Source: Ceratobasidium sp. AG-K
Lineage: Eukaryota > Basidiomycota > Agaricomycetes > Cantharellales > Ceratobasidiaceae
Reading direction: 5' to 3'
Length of the DNA: 64,000 nucleotides
Assembly: GCA_037039685.1 (NCBI GenBank)
Contig: JAWNGF010000009.1
Location: 1,798,001 to 1,862,000 of the forward strand
Shown here: positions 1,955-64,000 of the stretch, piece after piece
How positions within the stretch are numbered: the stretch's first letter is position 1
Layout: every line of letters begins with the position of its first letter
Notes under the pieces: generated by a model
Seen by the model: the letters and a program-made list of their open reading frames with translations, nothing else
What the model was told of the DNA's origin: nothing
The model's database searches: none
Made by a program: the position numbers and the translations under genes

Positions 1955-3973
1955 ATGGCTCGAATTCAAAAGCTGTTCGTCACTCTTCTCTACTCTTCTA
2001 GCTCTCTAGCTGCCAAACTCTGTACAGCTTCTGAGCCGTGCTGGCCGTCGTCCAAGACTTGGGTTGCCTTCAACTCATCCATCGGTGGACGCTTGGTCGC
2101 ACCCCGCCCTCCCGCCTGGCATTGTCACAATCCCAACTATGAGGAGGCTGCTTGTAACGAGGCCAAGGCAAACTGGCAGAGCTCGTTCTGGCGCTCGAAC
2201 CAGACCGGAGCGATGGAAAATCCGCTCTGGGATAGTCCCAATTGCGGTATCGACACTCCGCGGAATGTGACCTGCGATCAAGGATTTGTGCCAGTCTACT
2301 CTGTCGCTGCTATTGACGCGAATGATGTGAGCGCAGCTGTCAAGTTTGCTGGAGAGCACCGCTTGAAGCTGGTTGTTAAAAATACGGGCCATGATTAGTG
2401 AGCTGTGATGCATTTGCCGTTGATAATTTTTAACCTTGCTTCTCGTAGTCTCGGCCGTTCAAGTGGAGAGGGGTCATTTAGTATCTGGACCCACAAACTC
2501 CGGGGTATCAATTTTGAGGATTCGTTTGTCCCAACTGGATGCTCGAAAAAGTCGACCGGAACGCCCGCTGTTACTGTCGGAGCGGCTGAGCAATGGCGAG
2601 GTAGGGCTTGTTATTTGCATTCTTAATTGCGACTTACTCATTGTTTCCAGCGGTCTATCAGGCTGCCAACGAGCACAATGTTATTGTGGTTGGAGGGGCG
2701 GCGAATAGTGTCGGTGCTGCTGGAGGTTGGGTTCAAGGCGGTGGTCACAGCCCACTGGGCGTAATTCACGGGATGGGAGTAGATAGTGAGTACGAATGGT
2801 GGAAGTTCCTCTCAGGGTTAACTCGCCGCCTGCAGATGTGTTGCAGTTCAACATCGTCAAACCTGACGGGAAAGTCGTAGCTGCTAACGCGTGTCAGAAC
2901 AAAAATCTGTTCTGGGCACTCCGTGGAGGCGGAGGAGGCACGTGGGGAGTAAGTCAAACGAATACTTATACATGATCTTAGATTGTTGAATCTCGAATAG
3001 GTCACACTGGATGTCACTTACAAGACTCATCCGCCCATCATCAGCGTTGTCGCCCTGCTCGCTCAAGTGAATACGACTAGCATTGACCAGCTTAAAGAGG
3101 CAACCGCCGTCATGCTGAAGAACATTCCCAATATGACTAAACAAGGTATGATTCACGCCTGACCATCTTATTCTGGTACTTACGCATGTGCATAGGGGTG
3201 CGCGGCTACGGATTCTGGCTTCTTCCCATCAATTCTCTCGCTTTCGTGCTCATCCATCCCAATAGCACATCCGTCGAATTTACCAACAGTACACTTGGAC
3301 CCGTCTACGAGTGGGCTGCCCAGAACCCTGGCGTATCGGCTGGAGCATCAGGCACTGTCCACCCAACGTTCTTCAACTTTTTCTCGCAGTATATTACGGA
3401 CATCGGCATCGGTACTCCATCATGGTTAACTGGACGATTGATATCGAGCGACTCACTATTAAAGAATTCGACTGAGATTTCCAAACTTATCTCAGGTGAC
3501 ATTCCCCTCTTTACCACCATTAATATTGGTACGTAATCATCCCTCCGTCAGCCGACACAACTCATTTCATCCAGTCGGAGGTGGAGCGGTCAACGACTTT
3601 GACCCTGATTCGACTGGCCTAAGCCCTCAATGGCGCAAGGATGCGCTCGTCAGCTGGAACTTTGCCGCGTCTTGGCCAGAAGGTGCATCTCCCGAGGTGA
3701 TCGCGGCCGTCAAGGACCATGCGAATAACTATACGCAGACCTTGGGTGACCTCGCGGGGTTAGATCACGCCGCGTACTGGAATGAAGCCAATCCGTGAGT
3801 CTTGTGAATGATTGCCCAGACCCATGTCTGATAGAGTTTGTTCGACTAGCGCTGAGCCGCTATGGAAAAAGTCCTTTTTCGGGTCGCATTACGGCCGTCT
3901 CCTTAAGATCAAGAAACAGGTGGATCCAAAGGGGTTGTTTACATGCAACCGCTGCGTCGGCGATGAATCGTAA
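1955..3973 (+). CDS. FAD-linked oxidase copy B (VAO/BBE-like, secreted)
   Basis: Complete eight-exon gene. Exons are 1955-2397, 2449-2600, 2651-2785, 2836-2948, 3001-3145, 3196-3528, 3575-3794 and 3850-3973, giving 1665 nt or 554 aa. All seven introns (46-55 nt) are GT-AG and all phases close. Residues 1-20 form a signal peptide (hydrophobic [13 protein letters not shown]), so the product is probably secreted. The FAD-binding domain has [15 protein letters not shown] around residue 143, where His146 is the expected covalent-FAD histidine, and [13 protein letters not shown] at 223-235. The second flavinylation Cys of plant BBEs is not evident there, so attachment is probably to one residue. 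The C-terminal BBE segment ([18 protein letters not shown], then CNRCVG) occupies the last 40 residues. It resembles the fungal isoamyl-alcohol-oxidase-like group; the substrate is unknown. It is flanked by the tail of copy A and by pseudogene C, so it is the only whole member here. Confidence 0.88.
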
Positions 3974-4916
3974 GGAGAATGAGTTTGGTAAAATTTTGAA
4001 CCCTTAATGTATATACGTGCTGTTGTGTCTTGGCCCTCATCTAATTATATCTATGCCCCCCTGGGAGATCGACCAAGTGTGACTGGGATGTTTGAGAACG
4101 AGCGCACATGCTTCGAAACCAATGGCGGGTGGACACGACAGCCGAGCAGCGGCTGAACCCGCACTGTAATCTGACCAGGGCTACTGGGTGATTCTCAACC
4201 CTGTTCTGGGCTACGATGCTAACTTGGGATACTCCAACATCAAGCCTCGACGACTAGGGGAAGCTACTATGCGCTGATATCTCCCGGTATCGCCAACGGT
4301 AATTTACTGCATTCCCACTATGCGTGTAATTTCTTGATTTATGACCGCCACACTGCATCACTATAGCTTTTGCTAGTCAAACGGCTATCTGGCGGGTTTA
4401 TTGAGAATCGAATGGAATCGAATCGAATGAACACGTACTACTTACTGAATATGTACGATTGACTGGCTGTATGCTGACTGATTATTCTCGTGCTGACTGA
4501 GAGTACACGTATTCGTGTTACTAATTGTTCTATCACTCTCGTTCTATGTTCTACGTCCACATGTATATAAAGTCGACTGCGTATTCGCTATATACATCAC
4601 TCCTGTAGTTCACTTCCACTGCGTGGCTTAGCTAAGAAGCTCATTGAGTGCGAGACGTTCTCGGTAATATCTCAATAGGGTTCTCTTCAGATGGTAGCTT
4701 ACGAAGATCGGCCTTATGTCCTACGGAAAATCTTGATGATATTTGGTTACTAAGTGCTATTCGACATGGAGATAGCCATCTTCATGCCTAATAACTTGTG
4801 GTGGAATATAACTGACATCGCCTACGGAGGACTGGCGTTGTAATAGGGAGTAAACGCCGCCAGAAACTAGTCTTGGCGCTTGTTATGATAATGGTTAGCT
4901 GATCCAAACGCAGATA
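3974..4916. other. intergenic with GAATC/GAATG repeat and an orphan TATA box
   Basis: No gene is recognised. A short GAATC/GAATG-type simple repeat occurs near 4403-4431, and TATATAAAG at about 4563 looks like a core promoter with no gene behind it; it may belong to a decayed LTR. A similar TTATTGAGAATC-A/G-AATGGAAT string recurs near 40,525. Confidence 0.35.
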
Positions 4917-5126
4917 CACTGGGCGCCAAATTTATTGCACCACGTGATTAAAATCACATTTGCTCGTGTACTGCACGCAAACCGTAGCAAACTCGCCGAC
5001 AGAAAATGCGAATGTATTTAGAATGAATGTACAGTTCGAGCGCAAAAACAAGCTCGTGAATTCATAAGCTGAGTGGGGAGATCTGAGAACACGGGTTTCG
5101 AGGCTGGTGCAATAATTTTGGATCAC
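4917..5126 (+). repeat. left TIR of Tc1-like element
   Basis: 210-bp terminal inverted repeat beginning CACTGGGCGCC; identical to the reverse complement of 6295-6504. Confidence 0.95.
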
Positions 5127-6294: not shown

Positions 6295-6504
6295 GTGATC
6301 CAAAATTATTGCACCAGCCTCGAAACCCGTGTTCTCAGATCTCCCCACTCAGCTTATGAATTCACGAGCTTGTTTTTGCGCTCGAACTGTACATTCATTC
6401 TAAATACATTCGCATTTTCTGTCGGCGAGTTTGCTACGGTTTGCGTGCAGTACACGAGCAAATGTGATTTTAATCACGTGGTGCAATAAATTTGGCGCCC
6501 AGTG
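6295..6504 (-). repeat. right TIR of Tc1-like element
   Basis: 210-bp partner of the left TIR, ending GGCGCCCAGTG just before a TA. Confidence 0.95.
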
Positions 6505-6754
6505 TACGCCAACTGTCCTCGTCGAACTCGGGCTTGACGCAATGCACCAAGACCCTTTTTTCACACTTTGGCTGGCACTAGCGTCCACGCTATACTTAAC
6601 GTGGCGCCACGCATGCCGTTATCCAAGTTGCGGTCGCTCCACGGGCCCCAAAACGAGGCCGGCGCAACACGGAGTTGGACATCAATGACGATTAAGAATG
6701 CTCCCCCGACCAGCTTTCGGTCTGCGCCGCTGCTCTTTCCTGCCGCGTGCGCTG

Positions 6755-7795: not shown

Positions 7796-7804
7796 GGGGG
7801 TCCG
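7796..7804. repeat. target-site duplication, left copy
   Basis: GGGGGTCCG, repeated exactly at 10,279-10,287 on the far side of the inserted element. Removing the element and one copy restores the exon end and the start of the intron of oxidase C. Confidence 0.85.
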
Positions 7805-7934
7805 TTGCCTAGAACGTAAGCTCCTTCCAAATGCGGCGGCCTTATGTCATCAGCGGTTGGTCGGCCGCCACGGAGCTTAGTGGAATTGTGCTGGTGAGTA
7901 CAGGGGGGGTCGGGAACTCACCGTCACACTTGTA
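7805..7934 (+). repeat. left TIR of the DUF6589/RecQ element
   Basis: Starts TTGCCTAGAAC and contains GTGAGTACAGGGGGGGTCGG near its inner end. It pairs with 10,151-10,278 over about 130 bp with mismatches. AAGCTCC (from 7818) and GGAGCTT (from 7872) form a second, internal inverted repeat. Confidence 0.85.
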
Positions 7935-8140
7935 AATACGTATCGTCGCAATAGTAAATCTTTTTCCCCTTGTCGATTTACTTCGGTCCGCACTTGAGGA
8001 TAAATGAAAATGTCGAAGTACGTGGCCAGAAGGGGAGGCTAAATTCCCACAGGAAATTAAAGCCGACGCCTAACGCCGATAGCGATTGCCCCCATCAATC
8101 CCCCCGTTGCTCCTCAGCCCGCCACAAGACCACTAACTAT

Positions 8141-9145
8141 ATGCTAGGGCGAACTCGTTCTAAGACCTCTTCTCTTCGACGCGCGCAATCCGCTCCTCGA
8201 AATTCGCATTTCCGGGCGAGATCTTCGTCGCCGTCGCCCGAATCGCCACCTCCCGCGCTCTCTCCGGAAGAAACGGTCCGCGACAGCTGCGAGCGTGCAC
8301 TCGAGTTGCTGGAGACACTAGGGACGACGTTTGGAGACTGTTTGGTGGCAATCTGCTATGGGGACTCGGCCTTACGGGGTTCCAATCGGGCGATGCGAGC
8401 GCGAGCCAGCATCTACGAGACCGACAACCTTCGAGCTTTCCTCAACAACGCCTATCGACCGTTGCGACCTCCGAGCGGCCACGGAAAACGCCCAGTAGCG
8501 GGCTCAAAGACAATCCAGCGATTCGCTTCCGCAACCGTCCAGGAAACCTTCAAGAACGAGCTCAGCAAGTTTTCCGAGGGGTAAACTATTGACCAGAGCC
8601 AGTTAGCTAACACAGACTATATGGCGACGATTACATCGACATCCCTGCACGACCAGATCAAAATGACCTGCCCCGAGCTCTACGACATGCTGAGCGGACT
8701 GACGGGAAGCGCGATGGACGAGGATGACGAGGAGGAGGATGAAGACGAGGACGTGGATGAGGCACTAATTACTTATAAGAAACCAAAGAAAAAGCATCCG
8801 CATTTTGTATGTAGCAGGCACTTGAGCCAGTGCGATAGTTAATCGACAGTTAGAACATTGTTTTCCAAGTCACATCCATGGCATTTCGCTTAAATCGTCA
8901 GCGAAATGTTTTACAAAAGTATCTATCGGTCTATGTACAGGCCAAACACACCAACAAGGACATTGTCGACCTCCTTCAGCAGGCTGGAATCACGATGAGC
9001 TACTCGTGGATGCGCCGGACAATATCGAATCTTTCTGTTGACATTCGTAACCAGGCACGCCTCGCTGTACGAGAAAAACCCTATGGTGCTTCACACGATA
9101 ACATCCGGGTTACTTATCCCGTAGCGTCTCAGTGTGGCGACAACC
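8141..9145 (+). pseudogene. DUF6589-like protein, 5' half
   Basis: Three plus-strand blocks read as one truncated intron-containing gene. Block 1 (ATG 8141 to about 8580) is Ser/Pro/Arg-rich, then ERALELLETLGTTFGDCLVA, like the start of basidiomycete DUF6589 proteins. Block 2 (from about 8616) has CPELYDMLSGL, a run of acidic residues and a KKPKKKH basic patch. Block 3 (from 8878) has RQRNVLQKYLSVYVQAKHTN, a segment about Leu and Ser-Tyr-Ser contacts, and then SHDNIRVTYPV. Coding stops at a junction with the opposing helicase gene at about 9140-9155. I could not close the exon phases, so small frameshifts are possible. The family assignment is from memory of the family's look. The conserved Asp-Asn could be the first acid of a DDE-like active site; that is inference. 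Confidence 0.6.
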
Positions 9146-9149
9146 AATT

Positions 9150-9880
9150 GCCGATATTGATAGAAAAATGGTCGCGGTTGATGTGGAGTGAACGAATAAC
9201 ACCCTGTCGAAGTTTTGGGGTCAAAGTCGCCGTTGCAGCACACATAGGCGAATTTTTGGGATCCGGCATGAACACTCGCATGTCGCCAATTCGCTCATAC
9301 TCCTTGCGAAAGCCGGACGCGCCCCACGTCGAAATGCAGTGCGCCTCGTCGACAATCGTGGCGTGCTTCTTGTGAGCGAGCTCAGGCGATGTAATGACCA
9401 AACGCAACTTATTTGCATCTTTATAGGCTTCTGGAGATGATATAACAACCTTGTACTTTCCCGCTTTGATTTCCTTTGCACCCCAGTAAGTTTTTGCGAA
9501 TGTATGCGCTGTAAACGTACTGCGATCAATTCCGGTGTGCATGTCGAAGCATTCACGGCCACGGCAGGGAATCCGGCGTCGGTGTATACCCTGGCCATCT
9601 GGTTCTCTATCATGTTGAGCGGGGAAACGATCCAGGTAATGGCGTCCTCGCAGAGAACGTGAATAATGATGAAGGCAACCGACTTGCCCGACCCAGTACC
9701 CGCCACGCAGATAACGTCCTGACCCGCGTCGACGGCCAAGCCAAAGTCCACTTGGAAATGGCGTGGAACTATCCCCATACGCCGGTAAGTCTCGAGTCCA
9801 ACCCAATCCACACGAGTGAGAGGACGGTTTCGTGCGACCCTGTCGATCTCCTCGGGCGTCGAGCCGAAAACGAACTCCAT
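9150..9880 (-). pseudogene. RecQ-like DEAH helicase, N-terminal half
   Basis: Minus-strand gene starting at ATG 9880. Helicase motifs appear in order: a Gln-containing FQVDFGLAVDAGQD region, Walker A AGTGSGKS, motif Ia VSPLNMIENQMA, motif II VDEAHCISTWG (the DEAH-CIS-WGH-like form of RecQ enzymes), FRKEYERI, and motif III ATATLTP. A 47-nt intron with GTACGT donor and CAAAG acceptor joins the two frames used. The coding region is lost just after SINIGN, so the second RecA-like domain, the Zn-binding region and any C-terminus are missing and the protein cannot be a working helicase. Multi-copy RecQ-like genes are known near basidiomycete telomeres; here the copy sits inside a TIR element. Confidence 0.8.
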
Positions 9881-10150
9881 GGCGCGATTCGAGGGCTAAT
9901 TTTTTTTCTGTAGCCTTCCACCACCCCCAAGCCCCTCCCCACCAACTTTCAGATGACTAGCTCAAGATTTCGAGGAATGACACGGCGACGCAGGTGGGGA
10001 AAGAGACAGAGGTACGTATTTGAAATTACCGTTGTCCTAGGCTCACGCTCGACTCTCCCGCTCTAGATACAGGTCGAATTTCTTCGTTCTTTTTGCGCGA
10101 TACAGTGTATATAGTAGATTCAACTAGTTTTTATTATCACTCCGTATTCT

Positions 10151-10278
10151 AATTACAAGTGCGTTGGGCGGTTTCCGACCCCCCCTGTACTCACTAGGAC
10201 AAGTACACCAAGCTCCATGGAAGCGCCGAGCTGACGGATGGAGCCGGTCGTCCCAAAATGGAGCTTGGTTCCAGGCAA
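10151..10278 (-). repeat. right TIR of the DUF6589/RecQ element
   Basis: Reverse complement starts TTGCCTGGAACC and contains the same GTGAGTACAGGGGGGGTCGG string. ACCAAGCTCCAT (10,207-10,218) and ATGGAGCTTGGT (10,258-10,269) are a perfect 12-bp inverted repeat within the TIR. Confidence 0.85.
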
Positions 10279-10287
10279 GGGGGTCCG
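10279..10287. repeat. target-site duplication, right copy
   Basis: GGGGGTCCG, partner of 7796-7804. The next three bases (TTG) also match on both sides, so the duplication could be read as up to 12 bp. Confidence 0.85.
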
Positions 10288-19252: not shown

Positions 19253-19585
19253 AACAACGTGGGCAGACTCCGTACGCACTAGTCTCCTGTTTTGAATACC
19301 AACCCTCACATCGTGGCGATAAGACATCAGTTACGCAGTCCTTTATCGGCTGACCCCGTCAGCCGCTCACCTCGTGTTATTAGGCGCCAGTACCGCGGCT
19401 GTAATCAATACACACTCAGTCCCCCCAACCCACTGTTATCAACTCGGTGGAGCGGGCATACAAGATTCCCATAGCTATCCCTCAGCGGCTAGTAGAAGGT
19501 AAGCCTGCTGGGCACTCATCTATGTCTGGTAGCCCGCTCATAGAAACTTCGGTGTCGGTGACCGTAGATTACTCCAGTCACAATG
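19253..19585 (+). repeat. 333-bp inverted repeat, left arm (shared 5' cassette)
   Basis: Matches the reverse complement of 22,478-22,810 with four base differences and no gaps by eye. The match ends exactly at the ATG of the gene at 19,583. The arm contains a possible 5'-UTR intron (GTAAGCCTGC to CTCATAG). No target duplication flanks the pair, so a TIR transposon is not supported. Confidence 0.9.
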
Positions 19586-20395
19586 TCATTCAAGTTGGAA
19601 TGGAGCGACGATTGCACAAGTGTTCAGATCTTACAGAGGCACCGACTCAAAGACATATTCCCCCCAGGATTCGATGCCAATGCCACAGCAATTCGCGATA
19701 ACAGAGGCCACTATGTGTACGCACCAGAGCAACTATTTCGCTCACTCACCGAAAGAATGGACGCCGACCTGCGTCTAAACTCCATAGTTGTGAAGCAGGC
19801 TTGGTATGGGAAGGAAAAGAGGTCCGCCCGACATGAGTTTATCTTGATCCAAATCGAGGACACGAAAATATCGCTCGCAAACTATCTGATCCTCAACCGC
19901 GAAAATGGACATGCCAATTCTTCGGCCTCTAGTATAAGATCGAGCATTCGTGCACTCTCTACAGGAGCCGTAGCAACCGATGCTTTTCGGGTCTCGTATA
20001 ATGGGGACGTCGAGCAGCTACTTCGCGAGTGCCAGTTTATGTCTCATAGGTTTCTCGAGACCCTCCAATTTGGTGCGAACCCCCCGCCCCTGCATCAGCT
20101 TGTTGCCGTGGCGGACTCCGTCTCGGAGACCTACCCAAGTTATCACGCTATCCAGGCGAACTGCTATTGGTTTACCGGGGTTATTTGGGAATGCATGCGC
20201 GCCTTGTACCCTGGGGCCGCCCATGAGGTCAATGCAAAGCTGAGAGGATCCCTTGGTATGGTTCGCTATACTGTAAATCAGGAGCAGGTCCAGAGTGTTT
20301 TACAAGCAACCACTCTGAAACTGGAGGCTCTCGCATTGAAGAACTCGGAGATAAAGGTTCGCACTTCGAGGGCACCAGTCGTACAGGTGCACTAA
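19583..20395 (+). CDS. hypothetical protein, possible NC/His papain-like fold, paralogue 1
   Basis: Single-exon 270-aa ORF with ATG directly after the shared 333-bp cassette. No signal peptide or membrane segment is visible. Two conserved spots stand out when it is set against the convergent gene at 21,638: RHEFILIQIED (residues ~93-103) with NYLILNR just after, and ANCYWFTGVIWECMR near residues 191-205. A His in a beta-strand followed by a downstream Asn-Cys-aromatic helix start is the layout of permuted NlpC/P60 (LRAT-like) cysteine enzymes, so a peptidase or acyltransferase fold is conceivable; that is inference. The frame is intact. Its protein diverges strongly from its partner while the 5' flank does not. 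Confidence 0.65.
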   Translation: MSFKLEWSDDCTSVQILQRHRLKDIFPPGFDANATAIRDNRGHYVYAPEQLFRSLTERMDADLRLNSIVVKQAWYGKEKRSARHEFILIQIEDTKISLANYLILNRENGHANSSASSIRSSIRALSTGAVATDAFRVSYNGDVEQLLRECQFMSHRFLETLQFGANPPPLHQLVAVADSVSETYPSYHAIQANCYWFTGVIWECMRALYPGAAHEVNAKLRGSLGMVRYTVNQEQVQSVLQATTLKLEALALKNSEIKVRTSRAPVVQVH

Positions 20396-21637: not shown

Positions 21638-22480
21638 TTAGTGATATTGAGTAACCAGAGCTGAAACTTGAAGACCAACATTTCGGGTGCATGATAACTT
21701 TAACTTGGCCTCGTCAATCTCCTTTTCCACGTCTTTACAAATCTCCACGACCGAGTCGGCGGCCGGAAGAGAAATGATCTTTAACCGACCCAATTTTCCT
21801 CTCCTCCACTTGAGTTTCTTGAGGGGCCTTTCGACGGACGCCCACCTGGGACGCATGTAACGCATACACTCCCAAATTAACCCAGCGAACCAGTAACAAT
21901 TGGCTCCAACAGGGTTATATATAGATTCTTTTCGGGATATGTGTTTCGCTAAAATGAGCAACTGATAGAAAAACAGCGGCCGCCGGCGACAAAACACGAG
22001 CTCTTCCAGCTTTCCATAGTGAGGCTTTAGCCCACAAGCTTTAAGTAGAGTTTCTACATCTCCCGTACAAGATATCCTAAGGTCGTCTGCCGCGTCTCGT
22101 AGAGATGAGGAATAAGCAAAGGAATTTCCATTGGTGAGGGTCGTTTGAGCGTTACGGTCAAGGACAATATAGTTGTTAAGCTGCGGCATTGTTACGTCCT
22201 CAACCTCGAGTACGATGAATTCGTGATTCACGGTTTGTTTCCTTTTTCCGTACCAAGCAGACTTCACAATCATGTACTCGGTACGCTTGTTGAGCTGATA
22301 TTCCCCGATAAGCACGTCGTGGAGCTGGCCTATCCCGAAATGGTAAAATTTCCTGTGTTCACGTTCTCCAGGATCAGGAGTGAGAGAAGGAGGAAATATG
22401 TCCTTGGATCTATGATGAAATGAGCCACTAGGACGCTCTAGTGTACGGATGAGATCTTCCCATGATGGTTTGACAGGCAT
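21638..22480 (-). CDS. hypothetical protein, possible NC/His papain-like fold, paralogue 2
   Basis: Single-exon 280-aa ORF, ATG at 22,480 directly after the right arm of the shared cassette. It aligns in layout with the convergent 270-aa protein: KDIFPP near residue 27, IVKSAWYGKRKQTVNHEFIV with VLEVED, NNYIVLDR, DVETLLKACG, and ANCYWFAGLIWECMRYM near residue 201. The C-terminus is Lys/Arg-rich (PLKKLKWRRGKLGRL). No stop or frameshift is visible. Overall identity to paralogue 1 looks low outside the motifs, although the 333 bp upstream are about 99% identical. Function is unknown; the His and Asn-Cys positions suggest a permuted papain-like enzyme. Confidence 0.65.
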   Translation of the reverse strand: MPVKPSWEDLIRTLERPSGSFHHRSKDIFPPSLTPDPGEREHRKFYHFGIGQLHDVLIGEYQLNKRTEYMIVKSAWYGKRKQTVNHEFIVLEVEDVTMPQLNNYIVLDRNAQTTLTNGNSFAYSSSLRDAADDLRISCTGDVETLLKACGLKPHYGKLEELVFCRRRPLFFYQLLILAKHISRKESIYNPVGANCYWFAGLIWECMRYMRPRWASVERPLKKLKWRRGKLGRLKIISLPAADSVVEICKDVEKEIDEAKLKLSCTRNVGLQVSALVTQYH

Positions 22481-22810
22481 TGTGACTGGAGTAATCTACG
22501 GTCACCGACACCGAAGTTTCTATGAGCGGGCTACCAGACATAGATGAGTGCCCAGCAGGCTTACCTTCTACTAGCCGCTGAGGGATAGCTATGGGAATCT
22601 TGTATGCCCGCTCCACCGAGTTGATAACAGTGGGTTGGGGGGACTGAGTGTGTATTGATTACAGCCGCGGTACCGGCGCCTAATAACACGAGGTGAGCGG
22701 CTGACGGGGTCAGCCGATAAAGGACTGCGTAACTGATGTCTTATCGCCACGATGTGAGGGTTGGTATTCAAAACAGGAGGCTTGTGCGTACGGAGTTTGC
22801 CCACGTTGTT
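22478..22810 (-). repeat. 333-bp inverted repeat, right arm (shared 5' cassette)
   Basis: Partner of 19,253-19,585, ending at the ATG of the minus-strand gene. It lies upstream of that gene, so it probably holds the promoter and 5' UTR of both paralogues. Confidence 0.9.
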
Positions 22811-39560: not shown

Positions 39561-39649
39561 AGCCCCAGCTGCTGTATCTGCCAGCACACAAGTAGCAAGT
39601 CCACCTTCACTGAGTACCCATAGGGCACTTGTGGTATATTGACTCACAT

Positions 39650-40404
39650 CTGTAAAACAGTCTGGGGATAGCTAGTGCTATATAGCACTATATAGCACCA
39701 TAGCAAATATACCACATTGCCTATATCTAGCAGCATATAGCAGTGTCCAGTGCTATATAGTGCTATATAGCTGTATGTAGCTGAGGCCCAATTTGGTGAG
39801 TGGAACAAAAAAGGTAGGGACATGTGGCTGTGCACTTACCATAAATGGTAATGATCTTCCCAGATAGGTAATTTGATATACCTTACTAACATACCCATTT
39901 TAGGACAAACTTTTGAACCAGTCAGCAGATTTCCATCCCCTTGGTACCAATGTGACTATATGCTACAAAATACCCCCAGGTGAGGTGTTAGGGGTGTACT
40001 CAGACATGTGGAATAGGGGGAAAATGCGACTTCAAGGGGCAGGGTGGGACTTGGAGTTTCAGGTCAGCTGAGTTCCTAAAATGGATATATTGCTCCCATA
40101 TTTGGAATTTCAAATATTACCAAAAAAGGAATTTTTCAAATCGTCTTAGAATCGAAAATTACCATATATGGAAATTCATTTATCCAAATTTGGACTAATT
40201 ACTTACCATATATAGTAAGTGCACAGCCACATGTCCCTACCTTTTTTGTTCCACTCACCAAATTGGGCCTCAGCTACATACAGCTATATAGCACTATATA
40301 GCACTGGACACTGCTGTATGCTGCTAGATATAGGCAATGTGGTATATTTGCTATGGTGCTATATAGTGCTATATAGCACTCGCTATCTCCAGACTGTTTT
40401 ACAG
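39650..40404. mobile_element. foldback/MITE-like element
   Basis: 755 bp with inverted arms of about 205 bp, starting CTGTAAAACAG and ending CTGTTTTACAG. Each arm contains strings of GTGCTATATAG and AGCACTATATAGCAC, which are themselves palindromic. The centre is non-coding. No clear target duplication was found. Confidence 0.8.
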
Positions 40405-41093
40405 GTGCATCTTTGGATTGAGTTGTTCTGTAACCTATGCCCCTTCCCCTTTAGATTGTGATAGGCTACAGAGGTTGAAGTCCCCCAGTAGAGCTTCCTG
40501 GTACATACATAGATGCACATAGGGTTATTGAGAATCAAATGGAATGTTATTGAATGTACTCAAGCAAATCCAATGGATCTCCCTTGGGCTCGTAAGCACC
40601 AAATTTCTTATGCATGCTCGCTTGGATAATGGAGCACTTGGGAGCACCCAAGTGGCTGTGAAATTGGTGCTCCTACACCTGAGCAAGCATGCACAAGCAA
40701 ATCAGCACTCACAAGCCCAAAAGAGAACCAATGGATTTGCTTGAGTTGTCTACCAAGACAATGAGATATCTGTGCTCATGGATATGCATGTTCTGGACAA
40801 ATATGGAGATCCTGAGCTGCAATGTTTGCCTTCAAGGAGTGATATTGTATGTCCTAACATTGTGGGGGATCAACAATTACTGAAACACTTGCCAACAGCA
40901 AAAGGGCCTTGAGTGGCTGGCTTGGAGCAGCCAAGCCATTATTCATAATGAACATTGTTTTTTATTCTGTACGTCTTGTTTTGAATTGGTTTTAGACAAA
41001 TCTTAGTGCTTTGCTCTGGCCCTACTCGACAAAAATCAAATTTCCTTTGAAGCACAAGGAGCCTGGGAGTCAACTCCCCTCTTGGTGAGGGCG
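40405..41093. other. no gene recognised
   Basis: Spacer after the foldback element; CAAGCAAATCCAATGG-type strings recur (about 40,560 and inverted near 40,735) but no feature is supported. Confidence 0.35.
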
Positions 41094-49398: not shown

Positions 49399-52300
49399 AT
49401 GGATGAACTAGAAATCATGTCAATATCAAATGAAAACCAATTATACCTTGATTTCACCGCTCATCCACTAGCTACGGCTCCTGATTCTAAGTCAGTTAAC
49501 AGATCGAAAAGATTCTCTGGACAAGCACTCCTCGACTGCGGTGCAACCTCCTGTTTCATCAACCCTTCCCTAGCAAAAGAGGCAAACCTTCCCCTTTTTC
49601 AGCACAAAAAACCAAAGACTCTGCGAGTTATAGACGGACGGGAAGTCTCATCTGGAAAAGTCACCCACTATACAAAATTTAGGCTTGTCATGGGAACACA
49701 TTCCAGCGAAATAGAATGTCATGTCACAAACATTGGAAGACACCCTATCGTACTCGGGATGTCATGGCTCAAAAAACATAACCCACAAATTAATTGGAAA
49801 AACAGGACAATTGCATACACAAGCAACTTCTGCTCAGAAAACTGCCTAGAAGTCCCGTCTACACTCCAAATTGCAGCTGAAACTACATTACCAGAGGAAT
49901 ACAAAGAGTTTGCAGATGTATTCGACGAATCCAGGTTAGAAGAACTGCCACCTCACAGGCCAACGGACATTACGCTCGATCTCCTACCAGAAGCTAAACT
50001 AAAGCACGGCCCTATCTACAAAACGTCCCCAGCTGAAGACAAGGAAATGAAGAAAGTACTAGAAACCCTAATCCGAAGGGGACACATTCAGATTTCTAAG
50101 TCTCCTTTGGCTTCCCCGGTTCTGTTTGTCAAAAAACCACATCCAGAAGATCCAAACAACCCAGAATTACGCTTTTGCGTTGACTACAGATATGTGAATT
50201 CGCTATGCAAATTCAACACGAGCGGAATACCTCTATTGGACCAATGGTTAAGGGCCCTGGAAGGATTTGTCATCGGCACCACTCTAGACTTGGCACAAGG
50301 ATTCCATCAAACCCGAATAGCAGCAGGCCATGAATGGAAAACAGCATTCAAAACTCAATACGGCATGTACGAATGGAAAGTCATGCCCTTCGGTCTCAAG
50401 AACGCCCCATCAAGCTTCCAGTCCCTAATGAACTCCATATTCAGGGACATTATGGGGGTTTTCGTACTCGTATACATTGATGATATCTTTGTTTTTTCCA
50501 AACGAGTAGAAGATCATCCAGGACACGTGAAAGAGGTGCTAAGAAGACTAAGGGAACACAAGCTGATCGCGAAATTGAAAAAATGCAAATTCCACCAGAC
50601 CAAACTGGACTGGGTAGGATTGGTCATTTCCAATAAAGGAATCGAAACGGATCAGGAAAAGGTCACGGCGGCTATGAACTGGAAAGCTCCCAAAAACGTC
50701 AAACAAGTTCAAGAATTCCTAGGATTCGTCAATTTCTATCGAAGATTCATTCAAGACTTTGCCGGCAAAGCCAGACCTCTGTACAACCTACTTAAGAAGG
50801 ATCAAAAGTGGCAGTGGACAAGCAAAGAACAAGAGGCCATGAATGCGCTAAAAGAAGCTCTTAAAGTGGCACCTGTAATGATGCAACCCGATCAGAATAA
50901 GGAATTTTTCCTCGAAACAGACGCGTCGGGATTTGCTACAGGAGCAGTTCTATCTCAGAAGGATGAAGAAGGGAAACTACACCCTGTAGCTTTTCTTTCT
51001 AAATCACTAAATCCGGCTGAGCGAAACTATGACATTTTTGACAAAGAACTATTGGCAATAATTAGAGCTTTCAAAGAATGGCGGCACCTACTTCAAGGCA
51101 CAGAAAAAGCTGTTCAAGTAATAACAGATCACAAAAATTTGGAATACTTCTCATCATCCAAGCAATTGAATCAACGCCAAATCCGCTGGATGAATTTCTT
51201 GGTAGACTTCAACTTCCAAATCTTGTACAGACCAGGAAGCCAAAACAAAAAAGCAGACATTCTCTCAAGGCAATACGACCTAGAACCTTTGGGGGGGGTA
51301 GAGAACCAAGTTCTCCTCAAACCAGACATTTTTATTTCGGCTATCACCCCTGACCAGGAAATTAACGATCTAATCAGAGAAGCAATCCTTGAAGATCCCA
51401 GATTAGAGGAAGCCCACAATAAGCTGAGAAACGGAGAAAAAGTCAAAGATTGGGAATACAGAGAAGGACTCCTAATGTTCAAAGGAAAGATCTTTGTCCC
51501 TAAGGATGAAACTGTCAGAAACCTGATATTGGAATCGCGCCATGACAATATTTCAGCTGGGCATCCGGGACAAGCAAGAACATTGGAATTAGTTTCCAGA
51601 ACTTACTATTGGCCAACCATGAAGAAATTTGTCAATTCTTATGTGTCACACTGCGAAACATGCATTCGAGTTAAACCATCGAACCAACTCCCCACAGGAT
51701 TACTGCGTCCTCTACATATTCCTGAGAGACCTTGGGAAGAGATCTCCTATGACATGATTGTAGGGCTCCCAGAATCAGAAGGATATGACGCAATCTTAAC
51801 AGTAGTAGATCGGTTCTCCAAGATGGCACACTATCTCCCTTGCAAATCAACGGCCACAGCAGTAGACATAGCCAATATTTTTGTCGCAAACATTTGGAAA
51901 CTTCACGGCACTCCAAAGGCAACAGTCTTGGATAGAGGATCCACTTTCAACTCAAAGTTCATTAGGCATCTATACAAACGGTTAGACGTAAAACCTACCT
52001 TCAGCACAGCGTACCATCCAAGGACAGACGGACAGTCAGAACGAGCAAACCAAGTGGTTGAAATCTTTATCAGGGCATTTGTCAACCATAGGCAAAACGA
52101 CTGGGTGGCCCTGCTCCCTATGGCAGAATTTGCGTACAACAATGGAATCCAAGCATCCACTGGCAAAACCCCTTTCCAAATCTGCCAGGGTTTTAACCCT
52201 AGAATGAACATCGGGGAAGAATCAGACTATACTGTTCCTGAAGCTGATGCCCATGCGGAATTCCTGCTGAAAGGATACGACGAAGTCAAAGCCGCCCTCA

Positions 52301-52797
52301 TCCTAGCAAATCAGTCCTACAAACACTACTTTGATAAAGGAGCCAAAGAACCAGAAGAGATGAACCCTGGAGATAAAGTCTGGCTTAATCATCAAAACAT
52401 ATCCACAGACAGACCTTCAGTAAAACTCTCTCACAAAGTTTTAGGCCCTTACAAGGTACTGGAAAAAGTAGGGACTCACGCTTTTAGACTGGAGTTACCA
52501 AAATCGATGAGAGTTCATCCTGTCTTCCATGTCATGCTGCTCAAGAAATTCCACTCTGATCCCCACGGCCGCGAACCTGCTCAACCACCCCCTATTGTCA
52601 CACAGGATGGAGAAGAAGAATGGGAGGTTGAAGAGATCCTTAATTCCAAGAAAATCCGTCGCCAACTCCACTATTATGTTAAGTGGAAAGGGTACTCTCA
52701 TGCAGACAACTCTTGGCAGTCAAAGGAAGATCTCAAGAACGCTCCTGAACTAGTTGATAAATTTCACAAACTCCACCCCACTGCGCCAGGCCCTTAG
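49399..52797 (+). CDS. family 1 pol polyprotein, intact (1132 aa)
   Basis: ATG 49,399, 35 nt after the gag frame stop and in a different frame. Domains in order: aspartic protease LLDCGATSCF (residues ~44-53); reverse transcriptase with FCVDYRYVN, MPFGLKNAPSSFQSLM and YIDDIFVFSK (from residue ~359); RNase H with FFLETDASGFATGAV (~503); integrase zinc domain HDNISAGHPGQARTLEL and CETCIRVK (~715-760); integrase core with VVDRFSK, VLDRGSTFNSK and YHPRTDGQSERANQ; and a C-terminal chromodomain EEWEVEEILNSKK with YYVKWKGYSHADNSW (~1072-1115). The chromodomain puts it in the chromovirus (Tf1/sushi-like) branch and suggests targeting to marked chromatin. All catalytic residues look present, so this is a potentially active enzyme set. 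Confidence 0.95.
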   Translation: MDELEIMSISNENQLYLDFTAHPLATAPDSKSVNRSKRFSGQALLDCGATSCFINPSLAKEANLPLFQHKKPKTLRVIDGREVSSGKVTHYTKFRLVMGTHSSEIECHVTNIGRHPIVLGMSWLKKHNPQINWKNRTIAYTSNFCSENCLEVPSTLQIAAETTLPEEYKEFADVFDESRLEELPPHRPTDITLDLLPEAKLKHGPIYKTSPAEDKEMKKVLETLIRRGHIQISKSPLASPVLFVKKPHPEDPNNPELRFCVDYRYVNSLCKFNTSGIPLLDQWLRALEGFVIGTTLDLAQGFHQTRIAAGHEWKTAFKTQYGMYEWKVMPFGLKNAPSSFQSLMNSIFRDIMGVFVLVYIDDIFVFSKRVEDHPGHVKEVLRRLREHKLIAKLKKCKFHQTKLDWVGLVISNKGIETDQEKVTAAMNWKAPKNVKQVQEFLGFVNFYRRFIQDFAGKARPLYNLLKKDQKWQWTSKEQEAMNALKEALKVAPVMMQPDQNKEFFLETDASGFATGAVLSQKDEEGKLHPVAFLSKSLNPAERNYDIFDKELLAIIRAFKEWRHLLQGTEKAVQVITDHKNLEYFSSSKQLNQRQIRWMNFLVDFNFQILYRPGSQNKKADILSRQYDLEPLGGVENQVLLKPDIFISAITPDQEINDLIREAILEDPRLEEAHNKLRNGEKVKDWEYREGLLMFKGKIFVPKDETVRNLILESRHDNISAGHPGQARTLELVSRTYYWPTMKKFVNSYVSHCETCIRVKPSNQLPTGLLRPLHIPERPWEEISYDMIVGLPESEGYDAILTVVDRFSKMAHYLPCKSTATAVDIANIFVANIWKLHGTPKATVLDRGSTFNSKFIRHLYKRLDVKPTFSTAYHPRTDGQSERANQVVEIFIRAFVNHRQNDWVALLPMAEFAYNNGIQASTGKTPFQICQGFNPRMNIGEESDYTVPEADAHAEFLLKGYDEVKAALILANQSYKHYFDKGAKEPEEMNPGDKVWLNHQNISTDRPSVKLSHKVLGPYKVLEKVGTHAFRLELPKSMRVHPVFHVMLLKKFHSDPHGREPAQPPPIVTQDGEEEWEVEEILNSKKIRRQLHYYVKWKGYSHADNSWQSKEDLKNAPELVDKFHKLHPTAPGP

Positions 52798-52807
52798 GAG
52801 GGGGTAA

Positions 52808-53222
52808 TGTCATGAGCTGACTAAGCTCAGACATTTTATTCTGATTTTATATCTTTTTTTCCGAACACTTTCCTTTTTTGGTACAATTGTCCTCTGGCGC
52901 TTAACTTGTGTCATGTGATGTATTTGTCCTTTCATTTGATATTGGTGATGCTTCCGGAACTTCCAGAATGTCAAGTCATGTCTCTTATCTCGCTTATCAT
53001 TGGTTGTACTCGGCTTTCCCACACTGATAGATGATGACGTGGCACTGATCCCTCATGTATATAAACCCAGAGGTCAAGCCGGTTAACGACAAGGCTTGAC
53101 CTCCTCTCCACTAGGACTTGCCCAATTAAATCCTCTTACTTATCACCACTCCTTGGGTTCAAAGACTTGTCTAAGTCGAACCCCTTAACCTTATATATAC
53201 CTAATTGACCCAAGTCGGGACA
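52808..53222 (+). repeat. 3' LTR of family 1
   Basis: 415 bp, identical to the 5' LTR apart from one visible base. The polypurine tract AGGAGGGGG precedes it. Confidence 0.95.
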
Positions 53223-53381
53223 GTCAGACACCCGGAACTGCAATCTGCCTGGGCTTTGCTGCAACCTCTTGAATACGTAGAGGGCCGCTCCTGAGTCCAA
53301 GATACATGCCATCTGTAAGGCTGGTCCCTCAAGGACGCGAATGAGGTTGTTGGAGATGGTGGAGCGGGTGACGGCGGGCAT
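53223..53381 (-). CDS. family 2 extra ORF, 5' part
   Basis: ATG at 53,381, downstream of pol. It encodes MPAVTRSTISNNLIRVLEGP, then a hydrophobic ALQMACILDSGAALYVF stretch, up to FRVSD, where the family 1 element interrupts it inside the target site GTCAG. If family 1 and one TSD copy are removed, the frame continues without a stop into 46,271-45,666, giving 765 nt or 254 aa. No family recognised. Confidence 0.6.
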
Positions 53382-61490: not shown

Positions 61491-62094
61491 ACTTGGAAGG
61501 AACAAATGAACCTATCACAATCTACACCGACCACCGGAATCTGCAATATTGGAAGAAGGCAACAACTTTCAACAGATGTCACGCTCGGTGGCACCAGATT
61601 CTGGCATCCTACAACTTTGAAATTGTGGACTGACCAGGGATCCTTTCAACAAAACCAGATCTACTGTCCAGAAGGAGCGACCATAACGACATTCCAACAG
61701 CAGAACAAGTAATGATCAAGGAAGAACAGATCAGGGGGTTCTCTGGAGACATGAAGTTCGATATCATCGCAGACATCAAAGAAGTGCAAGCGGAAGACGA
61801 AAGCATTAGCCAAATCATAGAACTATGCAAAAAGAAGGAAGACCTACCAAGATCAGTGCAAGAAGGGATCAAGAAGTACAATTTTGAAGAAAACCTTCTC
61901 TGGTTTGATGGGAAAATCTATGTACCGGAAGACAAGGACACAAGGTTGAAGATCATGAGAATACACCATGACTCACCAATAGCTGGTCACCAGGGACACG
62001 CACGCACACTGGAGCTTATCTCGAGAAGATACTACTGGCCAGGACTAAAATCTATGGTGAACAAATACGTGGACTCATGCGAACAATGCCAGAG
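61491..62094 (+). pseudogene. Gypsy fragment, family 4, inverted plus-strand part
   Basis: A second copy of the RNase H to integrase-linker segment, in opposite orientation to 59,344-59,830 and about as long, then extending further into the integrase zinc domain (HHDSPIAGHQGHARTLEL; CEQCQ). The junction with the minus-strand part lies at about 61,485-61,495 in TGCACTTGGAAGG, a string shared by both sides. It is cut at 62,095 by the LTR of another family 1 copy. TGA for Tyr-Arg at about 61,626 and frame shifts make it non-functional. Confidence 0.85.
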
Positions 62095-62509
62095 TGTCCC
62101 GACTTGGGTCAATTAGGTATATAAAAGGTTAAGGGGTTCGACTTAGACAAGTCTTTGAACCCAAGGAGTGGTGATGAGTGAGAGGATTTAATTGGGCAAG
62201 TCCTAGTGGAGAGGAGGTCAAGCCTTGTCGTTAACCGGCTTGACCTCTGGGTTTATATACATGAGGGATCAGTGCCACGTCATCATCTATCAGTGTGGGA
62301 AAGCCGAGTACAACCGATGATAAGCGAGATAAGAGACATGACTCGACATTCTGGAAGTTCCGGGAGCATCACCAATATCAAATGAAAAGACAAATACATC
62401 ACATGACACAAGTTAAGCGCCAGAGGACAATTGTACCAAAAAAGGAAAGTGTTCGGAAAAAAAGATATAAAATCAGAATAAAATGTCTGAGCTTAGTCAG
62501 CTCATGACA
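62095..62509 (-). repeat. 3' LTR of the second family 1 copy
   Basis: 415 bp, inverted relative to 46,277-46,691, with a handful of differences from it. Confidence 0.95.
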
Positions 62510-62519
62510 TTACCCCCTC

Positions 62520-64000
62520 CTAAGGGCCTGGCGCAGTGGGATGGAGTTTGTGAAATTTATCAACTAGTTCAGGAGCGTTCTTGAGATCTTCCTTTGACTG
62601 CCAAGAGTTATCTGCATGAGAGTACCCTTTCCACTTAACGTAATAGTGGAGTTGGCGACGGATTTTCTTGGAATTAAGGATCTCTTCAACCTCCCATTCT
62701 TCTTCTCCATCTTGTGTGACAATAGGGGGTGGTTGAGCAGGTTCGCGGCCGTGGGGATCAGAGTGGAATTTCTTGAGCAGCATGACATGGAAGACAGGAT
62801 GAACTTTCATCGATTTTGGTAACTCCAGTCTAAAAGCGTGAGTCCCTACTTTTTCCAGTACCTTGTAAGGGCCTAAAACTTTGTGAGAGAGTTTTACTGA
62901 AGGTCTGTCTGTGGATATGTTTTGATGATTAAGCCAGACTTTATCTCCAGGGTTTATCTCTTCTGGTTCTTTGGCTCCTTTATCAAAGTAGTGTTTGTAG
63001 GACTGATTTGCTAGGATGAGGGCGGCTTTGACTTCGTCGTATCCTTTCAGCAGGAATTCCGCATGGGCATCAGCTGCAGGAACAGTATAGTCTGATTCTT
63101 CCCCGATGTTCATTCTAGGGTTAAAACCCTGGCAGATTTGGAAAGGGGTTTTGCCAGTGGATGCTTGGATTCCATTGTTGTACGCAAATTCTGCCATAGG
63201 GAGCAGGGCCACCCAGTCGTTTTGCCTATGGTTGACAAATGCCCTGATAAAGATTTCAACCACTTGGTTTGCTCGTTCTGACTGTCCGTCTGTCCTTGGA
63301 TGGTACGCTGTGCTGAAGGTAGGTTTTACGTCTAACCGTTTGTATAGATGCCTAATGAACTTTGAGTTGAAAGTGGATCCTCTATCCAAGACTGTTGCCT
63401 TTGGAGTGCCGTGAAGTTTCCAAATGTTTGCGACAAAAATATTGGCTATGTCTACTGCTGTGGCCGTTGATTTGCAAGGGAGATAGTGTGCCATCTTGGA
63501 GAACCGATCTACTACTGTTAAGATTGCGTCATATCCTTCTGATTCTGGGAGCCCTACAATCATGTCATAGGAGATCTCTTCCCAAGGTCTCTCAGGAATA
63601 TGTAGAGGACGCAGTAATCCTGTGGGGAGTTGGTTCGATGGTTTAACTCGAATGCATGTTTCGCAGTGTGACACATAAGAATTGACAAATTTCTTCATGG
63701 TTGGCCAATAGTAAGTTCTGGAAACTAATTCCAATGTTCTTGCTTGTCCCGGATGCCCAGCTGAAATATTGTCATGGCGCGATTCCAATATCAGGTTTCT
63801 GACAGTTTCATCCTTAGGGACAAAGATCTTTCCTTTGAACATTAGGAGTCCTTCTCTGTATTCCCAATCTTTGACTTTTTCTCCGTTTCTCAGCTTATTG
63901 TGGGCTTCCTCTAATCTGGGATCTTCAAGGATTGCTTCTCTGATTAGATCGTTAATTTCCTGGTCAGGGGTGATAGCCGAAATAAAAATGTCTGGTTTGA
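62520..64000 (-). CDS. family 1 pol, C-terminal part
   Basis: Open to the window end on the minus strand. It covers the end of RNase H, the integrase zinc domain, integrase core and chromodomain. Compared with the copy at 49,399 I note Glu to Ala in VPEADAHAEF, Met to Ile in EEMNPGD and Arg to Lys in KSMRVHPVF. No stop or frameshift is visible in this part, so a second potentially active copy exists. Confidence 0.93.
   Translation of the reverse strand, partial: KPDIFISAITPDQEINDLIREAILEDPRLEEAHNKLRNGEKVKDWEYREGLLMFKGKIFVPKDETVRNLILESRHDNISAGHPGQARTLELVSRTYYWPTMKKFVNSYVSHCETCIRVKPSNQLPTGLLRPLHIPERPWEEISYDMIVGLPESEGYDAILTVVDRFSKMAHYLPCKSTATAVDIANIFVANIWKLHGTPKATVLDRGSTFNSKFIRHLYKRLDVKPTFSTAYHPRTDGQSERANQVVEIFIRAFVNHRQNDWVALLPMAEFAYNNGIQASTGKTPFQICQGFNPRMNIGEESDYTVPAADAHAEFLLKGYDEVKAALILANQSYKHYFDKGAKEPEEINPGDKVWLNHQNISTDRPSVKLSHKVLGPYKVLEKVGTHAFRLELPKSMKVHPVFHVMLLKKFHSDPHGREPAQPPPIVTQDGEEEWEVEEILNSKKIRRQLHYYVKWKGYSHADNSWQSKEDLKNAPELVDKFHKLHPTAPGP

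Follow-up and report, generated by a model that had tools for sequence, protein, structure and literature searches.

A deletion copy of a probable AcademH-type transposon carrying DUF6589 and RecQ-type helicase genes in Ceratobasidium sp. AG-K

Overview

The 64,000-nucleotide stretch of Ceratobasidium sp. AG-K DNA analysed here (the window; contig JAWNGF010000009.1, positions 1,798,001 to 1,862,000) contains, at window positions 7805-10278, an insertion with terminal inverted repeats (TIRs) and the remains of two genes, one for a protein of the DUF6589 family and one for a RecQ-type helicase. The insertion is very probably a non-autonomous, internally deleted copy of a cut-and-paste DNA transposon of the AcademH type, which is already known from fungi and animals, derived from a source like an element found on contig C11, with the DUF6589 protein as the putative transposase. 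This assignment rests on the target site duplications (TSDs), the TIRs and the gene pair. An earlier note, made from the letters of the window, had proposed a deletion copy of a larger DNA transposon encoding both proteins, and such an element was located on C11, with a length of 6,073 bp, 99% identity to the window copy and a 9-bp TSD.

The window element and its insertion site

The element starts with TTGCCTAGAACG and ends with GGTTCCAGGCAA (TTGCCT...AGGCAA). Its ends and the exact 9-bp copies of GGGGGTCCG on either side are as the earlier note had described them, and its inverted arms pair over 154 and 149 bp with gaps, the ungapped core being 71 nt at 80% identity. With the element and one TSD copy taken out, the two flanks read on from left to right in the same manner as a paralogue elsewhere in the window (Table 1), giving an exon ending GG-x-GGTWGV, a 5' splice site, an intron and the next exon. 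Because this unoccupied paralogue runs through the insertion point, the element can be placed at an exon/intron border. The note had assigned that border to an oxidase gene; the border stands, and the oxidase label is unconfirmed, with no Pfam match in the two short exon pieces scanned.

The two truncated genes converge. Both were recognized in the earlier note, which had taken the first to be a truncated DUF6589-like gene; the DUF6589 domain itself (PF20231) is gone, and the part upstream of it is what the window copy keeps. A genome profile search gave no PF20231 match on the window's contig, and neither did the 98-residue coding piece that ends at the deletion. This piece is the N-terminal portion of a C11 frame of 472 residues whose PF20231 match begins at residue 144. 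The 5' region of the gene is 98.8% identical in protein sequence to the C11 element across positions 7958-8461; a stop lies inside the first coding-region frame of the C11 copy, and none is present in the window copy.

The C11 element and the internal deletion

A search of the whole genome with the window element (53.6 Mb, 17 contigs; 27 matches listed) identified two loci on C11 that each contain the left and the right half of the window copy at 99% identity. The element at C11:545398-551470 is flanked by the TSD GCTAATTCC. Its plus-strand frame matches PF20231 at 3e-60, and its minus-strand frames match the DEAD domain (PF00270), with Helicase_C below the cut-off; the genes for DUF6589 and the RecQ-type helicase are thus on opposite strands and convergent. 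The window element matches two separated parts of this C11 element with its positions 1-1342 and 1340-2474, and about 3.6 kb, including the PF20231 domain, is missing from the middle. A C11-like copy that lost its middle at the 3-bp microhomology of the junction (Table 1) probably gave rise to the window copy, which may either have moved in its deleted form, with the enzymes of a fuller copy, or have been deleted after insertion.

The second C11 locus (C11:283260-303799) is a duplicate of the first, with shared stretches of 98.7-99.4% identity, the same TSD and flanks, and an interruption of about 14 kb. Both copies sit in a duplicated, inverted segment.

Related elements in the genome

Fuller elements with both genes, TIRs and 9-bp TSDs, for which the earlier note had proposed a search, were found on C11, C2, C7 and C1. 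Those on C2, C7 (the 504k locus) and C1 are divergent, fuller relatives of the C11 plan (Table 1). The identical TIRs and the long open DUF6589 frame of the C2 element suggest that it moved recently in this genome. Two further elements, one on C3 and one at the C7:1182k locus, are internally deleted. The former resembles the window copy in kind; at the latter, the genome searches returned no PF20231 or helicase match. TIRs are present in the elements with ends placed (window, C11, C2, C7, C1 and C3).

The TSD is exactly 9 bp in all seven insertions for which both ends could be placed (lengths of 4 to 15 were checked), and an exact 9-bp match arose by chance in 7 of 1,610,399 pairs of random positions. 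The ends given by the repeats or by sequence matches agree with the TSD in five of these insertions (window, C11, C2, C7:504k and C7:1182k). The ends of the C1 and C3 elements were picked by searching for repeats of 8-11 bp beside the TIR, and these two TSDs are consequently not blind.

Other loci are less complete. The C17 locus has a left end (TTGCCT), and its right end was not found; C10 and C2:4157k have the right end TTCCAGGCAA only, and the regions C10:144000-153900 and C2:4150000-4159900 agree at 93-98% across most of the DNA compared. Short end fragments occur at C3:1765k, C3:3700k, C3:4723k and C9:2118k, and no element ends were found at C7:1222k, C7:168k and C8:738k. As both ends are not placed, all of these loci lie outside the TSD count. 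At C8:2379k, C2:1796k, C1:331k and C1:6642k, only 5' parts of a DUF6589-type gene are present.

As a separate observation, inverted repeats of 279 bp at 97.8% identity are found in the loci L015 (6613-7531) and L016 (2671-7295), which also contain 5' DUF6589 relics, and may belong to a nested TIR element.

Table 1. Features of the window element (window coordinates) and other elements of the same plan in the genome
Feature	Location	Strand	Details
Left TSD copy	7796..7804		GGGGGTCCG, 9 bp
Left TIR	7805..7958	+	Begins TTGCCTAGAACG; imperfect; core arm 7868-7938
DUF6589-type protein, 5' coding region	8141..8584	+	Probable start ATG at 8141; no Pfam match alone
DUF6589-type gene, next coding piece	8854..9147	+	98 residues, includes SHDNIRV; ends at the deletion, ahead of the PF20231 domain
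Deletion junction	9144..9146		3-bp overlap CCA (element positions 1340-1342), matching both halves of the C11 copy
Truncated RecQ-type helicase	9144..9956	-	First lobe only; 98.5-98.7% protein identity to the C11 element
Right TIR	10130..10278	-	Ends ...TTCCAGGCAA; core arm 10150-10220
Right TSD copy	10279..10287		GGGGGTCCG, 9 bp, exact match to the left copy
Paralogue of the interrupted gene, unoccupied	2454..3150	+	Exon, GTAAGT donor, intron, exon
C2 element	C2:6749046-6754856		5,811 bp; 207-bp TIRs, 100% identical; TSD GGTCGTTCA; RecQ on +, 667-residue frame with DUF6589 on -
C7:504k element	C7:504057-522034		17,978 bp; 237-bp TIRs, 97.9%; TSD CACCTCGAC; convergent pair, the helicase gene split into halves separated by about 12 kb
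C1 element	C1:9058378-9064029		5,652 bp; TIR arms 67 bp at 85%; TSD TAATTAGGT; DUF6589 on +, helicase on -
C3 element	C3:2939740-2942638		2,899 bp; TSD GGTTCCACC; internally deleted, converging pieces of both genes
C7:1182k element	C7:1182613-1184935		2,323 bp; C2-type TIRs; TSD GTCTCGACC; internally deleted

The DUF6589-RecQ gene pair

Because only the best candidates are scored in the genome searches, all locus counts are lower bounds. PF20231 gave at least 10 matches, which represent nine loci (two of the matches fall in one C11 gene), and a convergent RecQ helicase is present at seven of the nine loci listed (C1, C2, C7:519k, C7:168k, C17 and both C11 loci). The helicase of the C2 element, used as a probe, likewise gave at least 10 matches at nine loci, eight of which are adjoined by DUF6589-type sequence; weak helicase matches at C3:5340k and C1:2566k were left outside the counts. 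At C2 and other loci, the helicase is encoded on the strand opposite to the DUF6589 gene and converges with it. Compared with the C2 protein, the longer DUF6589 pieces of the other lineages show 16-25% identity, with the exception of the C7 one (44-46%). The pair has thus been kept through a long divergence and did not come together by chance in a single insertion.

The coding pieces of the element helicases match PF00270, PF00271 and TIGR00614. The matches to TIGR00614, the RecQ family model, reach 3.1e-23, which is under the curated cut-off; exons scored one at a time may well fall short in this way.

Candidate catalytic residues of the DUF6589 protein

The earlier note had pointed to the aspartate of SHDNIRV as a possible active-site residue. 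In an alignment of copies from this genome (numbering is that of the C2 frame from its ATG), D73 and N74 (within SHDNIRV), the pair G249-D250, and H285 do not vary among the seven copies, in keeping with that suggestion as far as sequence comparison goes. Since the C17 and C7:1222k copies are nearly identical in sequence, the alignment represents fewer than seven independent copies. For the third acid, the pattern D-x-x-[QV]-E was found at eight places in the genome, although the E is demanded by the pattern itself and the motif of the C7:168k match is interrupted by a stop. When the E was not demanded, a search set the D and E strongly opposite each other only between C2 and C7, and did so for C7:168k at an E value of 0.003. 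The alignment entry for the third acid of C1 reads E/N because of an overlap of two C1 rows, one of them misaligned. D73, D250 and E504 make up a candidate DDE triad, in which the third acid is likely but less sure.

A profile search of PDB sequences with DUF6589 returned a single match, at E 1.5, to an entry labelled as a DDD_D12 construct, which is not meaningful. No relative was confirmed among 49 pattern matches in the viral_contigs set or 28 in the genome_contigs set, which are mainly viral and prokaryotic DNA and were searched with a two-sequence alignment as the query.

If the assignment is correct, the DUF6589 protein would act as the DDE transposase: it would bind the TIRs, cut the element out and insert it at a target cut with a 9-bp stagger. 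The RecQ-type helicase may aid the excision, a strand-processing step or repair. DUF6589 would then gain a concrete and likely function, that of transposase in transposons that carry a helicase, with candidate catalytic acids named. The link between DUF6589 and an AcademH-like transposase may be unrecorded under that name, as a full-text search of a library of open-licence papers gave no paper with DUF6589 in it, and would perhaps be plain from a Pfam run on Repbase proteins. In fungal annotations, genes for DUF6589 or for this type of RecQ would, in that case, be suspected transposon genes.

Alternative explanations

Several points weigh against the assignment of the window copy to an AcademH-type transposon with a DUF6589 transposase. 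The likeness to AcademH is one of features described in citing papers. As duplicates of one locus, the two C11 copies represent a single insertion event, and the second copy was left uncounted. No RecQ gene was found at two of the nine PF20231 loci (C7:1222k and C8:738k) within the DNA examined, and no DUF6589 sequence lies within the 6 kb examined at the helicase locus C4:3345k. In the DUF6589 protein, the pairing of the D and E of the third motif is weak for C1, C17 and C7:1222k (E 0.1-0.8, with chance matches in the same range), and the third-acid exon of C11 was missed by the search that did not demand the E. AlphaFold models of the C2 DUF6589 frame are too low in confidence to bear on the putative RNase H-like core, with a mean predicted local distance difference test (pLDDT) score of 43.1 (640 residues, 11 rows) or 42.0 (556 residues, 14 rows). 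With regard to C7:1222k (L025), the DUF6589 gene seems to be replaced by other sequence, by eye perhaps a retroelement, soon past the third-acid exon, which may be the reason for the missing RecQ.

It is unlikely that these elements form a separate, undescribed superfamily with a DUF6589 transposase unrelated to that of Academ, an independently gained RecQ gene and 9-bp duplications reached by convergence. Such an origin would agree with the absence of DUF6589 by name from every paper covered by a full-text search of a library of open-licence papers, with the listing of the family (PF20231) in Pfam as one of unknown function, and with a likeness to Academ that is drawn from published description. 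However, the TSD length, the DEAD/RecQ-family helicase, the low copy number and the fungal occurrence all coincide with AcademH or fungal Academ as these are described in the source passages cited below. DUF6589 as a transposase superfamily in its own right, unrelated to Academ, joined independently by RecQ and converging on 9-bp duplications, is rated quite improbable.

Kolobok elements duplicate TTAA, against 9 bp in all seven resolved insertions here, and a Kolobok-type affiliation is very improbable, even though passages in PMC9587614 describe a DNA transposon with a RecQ helicase, known only from fungi, as well as a Kolobok of a red alga that has RecQ on its complementary strand, similar to the arrangement seen here. 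Mutator-like elements (MULEs) typically have long TIRs and duplications of about 9 bp. These two features, together with the 4-10 bp TSDs given for the MuDR/IS256 group in a passage of PMC10045372, would suit a Mutator-like element that had captured two host genes. Such a capture is scarcely credible here: a Pfam scan of 15 coding pieces from C2, C7 and C1 (exons scanned apart, with a single piece of the C1 helicase among them) detected no MULE domain, only DUF6589 and helicase domains and otherwise weak matches below the cut-off, and a single capture would not give a pair that recurs where the DUF6589 pieces are as divergent from the C2 protein as described above. The elements are filed as new AcademH-like families, the plan of which is already known in kind.

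Other inverted repeats in the window

Four other sets of inverted repeats were observed in the window. One of 1,909 bp at 99.2% identity (51317-53225 and 62092-64000) has a second arm that reaches the window end. One of 212 bp at 100% identity (4915-5126 and 6295-6506), spanning about 1.6 kb, is possibly a young non-autonomous TIR element. The repeats at 19253-19593 and 22470-22810 (341 bp, 97.9%) and at 39647-39851 and 40203-40407 (205 bp, 97.1%) suggest more TIR elements.

Comparison with known transposons

The defining paper of AcademH is reportedly that of Kojima in 2020 (Mob DNA 11:15). The comparison below draws on passages of the papers cited. AcademH elements generate TSDs of 9 or 10 bp and AcademX elements TSDs of 3 or 4 bp, a difference tied to whether a helicase or a nuclease is encoded (PMC10045372). 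AcademH occurs at low copy number in Basidiomycota, Ascomycota and Mucoromycota; the domains named for AcademH, KolobokH or Helitron include DEAD and Helicase_C (PMC10799480). Recognizable domains, for example PF00270 and recQ_fam, were reported in 1,568 of 1,938 fungal Academ copies, and because most copies contain such domains they are often annotated as host genes (PMC6416283). Putative non-autonomous Academ elements are widespread in the basidiomycete Marasmius oreades (PMC8290104). The earlier note knew of no described superfamily with this gene pair; that statement is not upheld by the passages cited, on fungal Academ elements with DEAD/recQ_fam domains (PMC6416283) and on AcademH, with its helicase and 9- or 10-bp TSDs (PMC10045372).

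The relation of the present elements to each of these groups can be stated by their shared and differing features. They differ from KolobokH in their 9-bp TSD, in place of TTAA. They resemble it as fungal DNA transposons with a RecQ helicase (PMC9587614). AcademX belongs to the same superfamily as AcademH, but encodes a nuclease instead of a helicase and has 3- or 4-bp TSDs (PMC10045372). The fungal Academ copies match the same models, PF00270 and recQ_fam, as the elements described here, whereas DUF6589 is unmentioned in the survey passages (PMC6416283). With AcademH, the elements share an encoded helicase, a TSD of corresponding length (9 bp here, compared with 9 or 10 bp) and low copy number in fungi, and no difference was seen in the features tested, the likeness being based on the published description, the TSDs, the TIRs and the gene pair.
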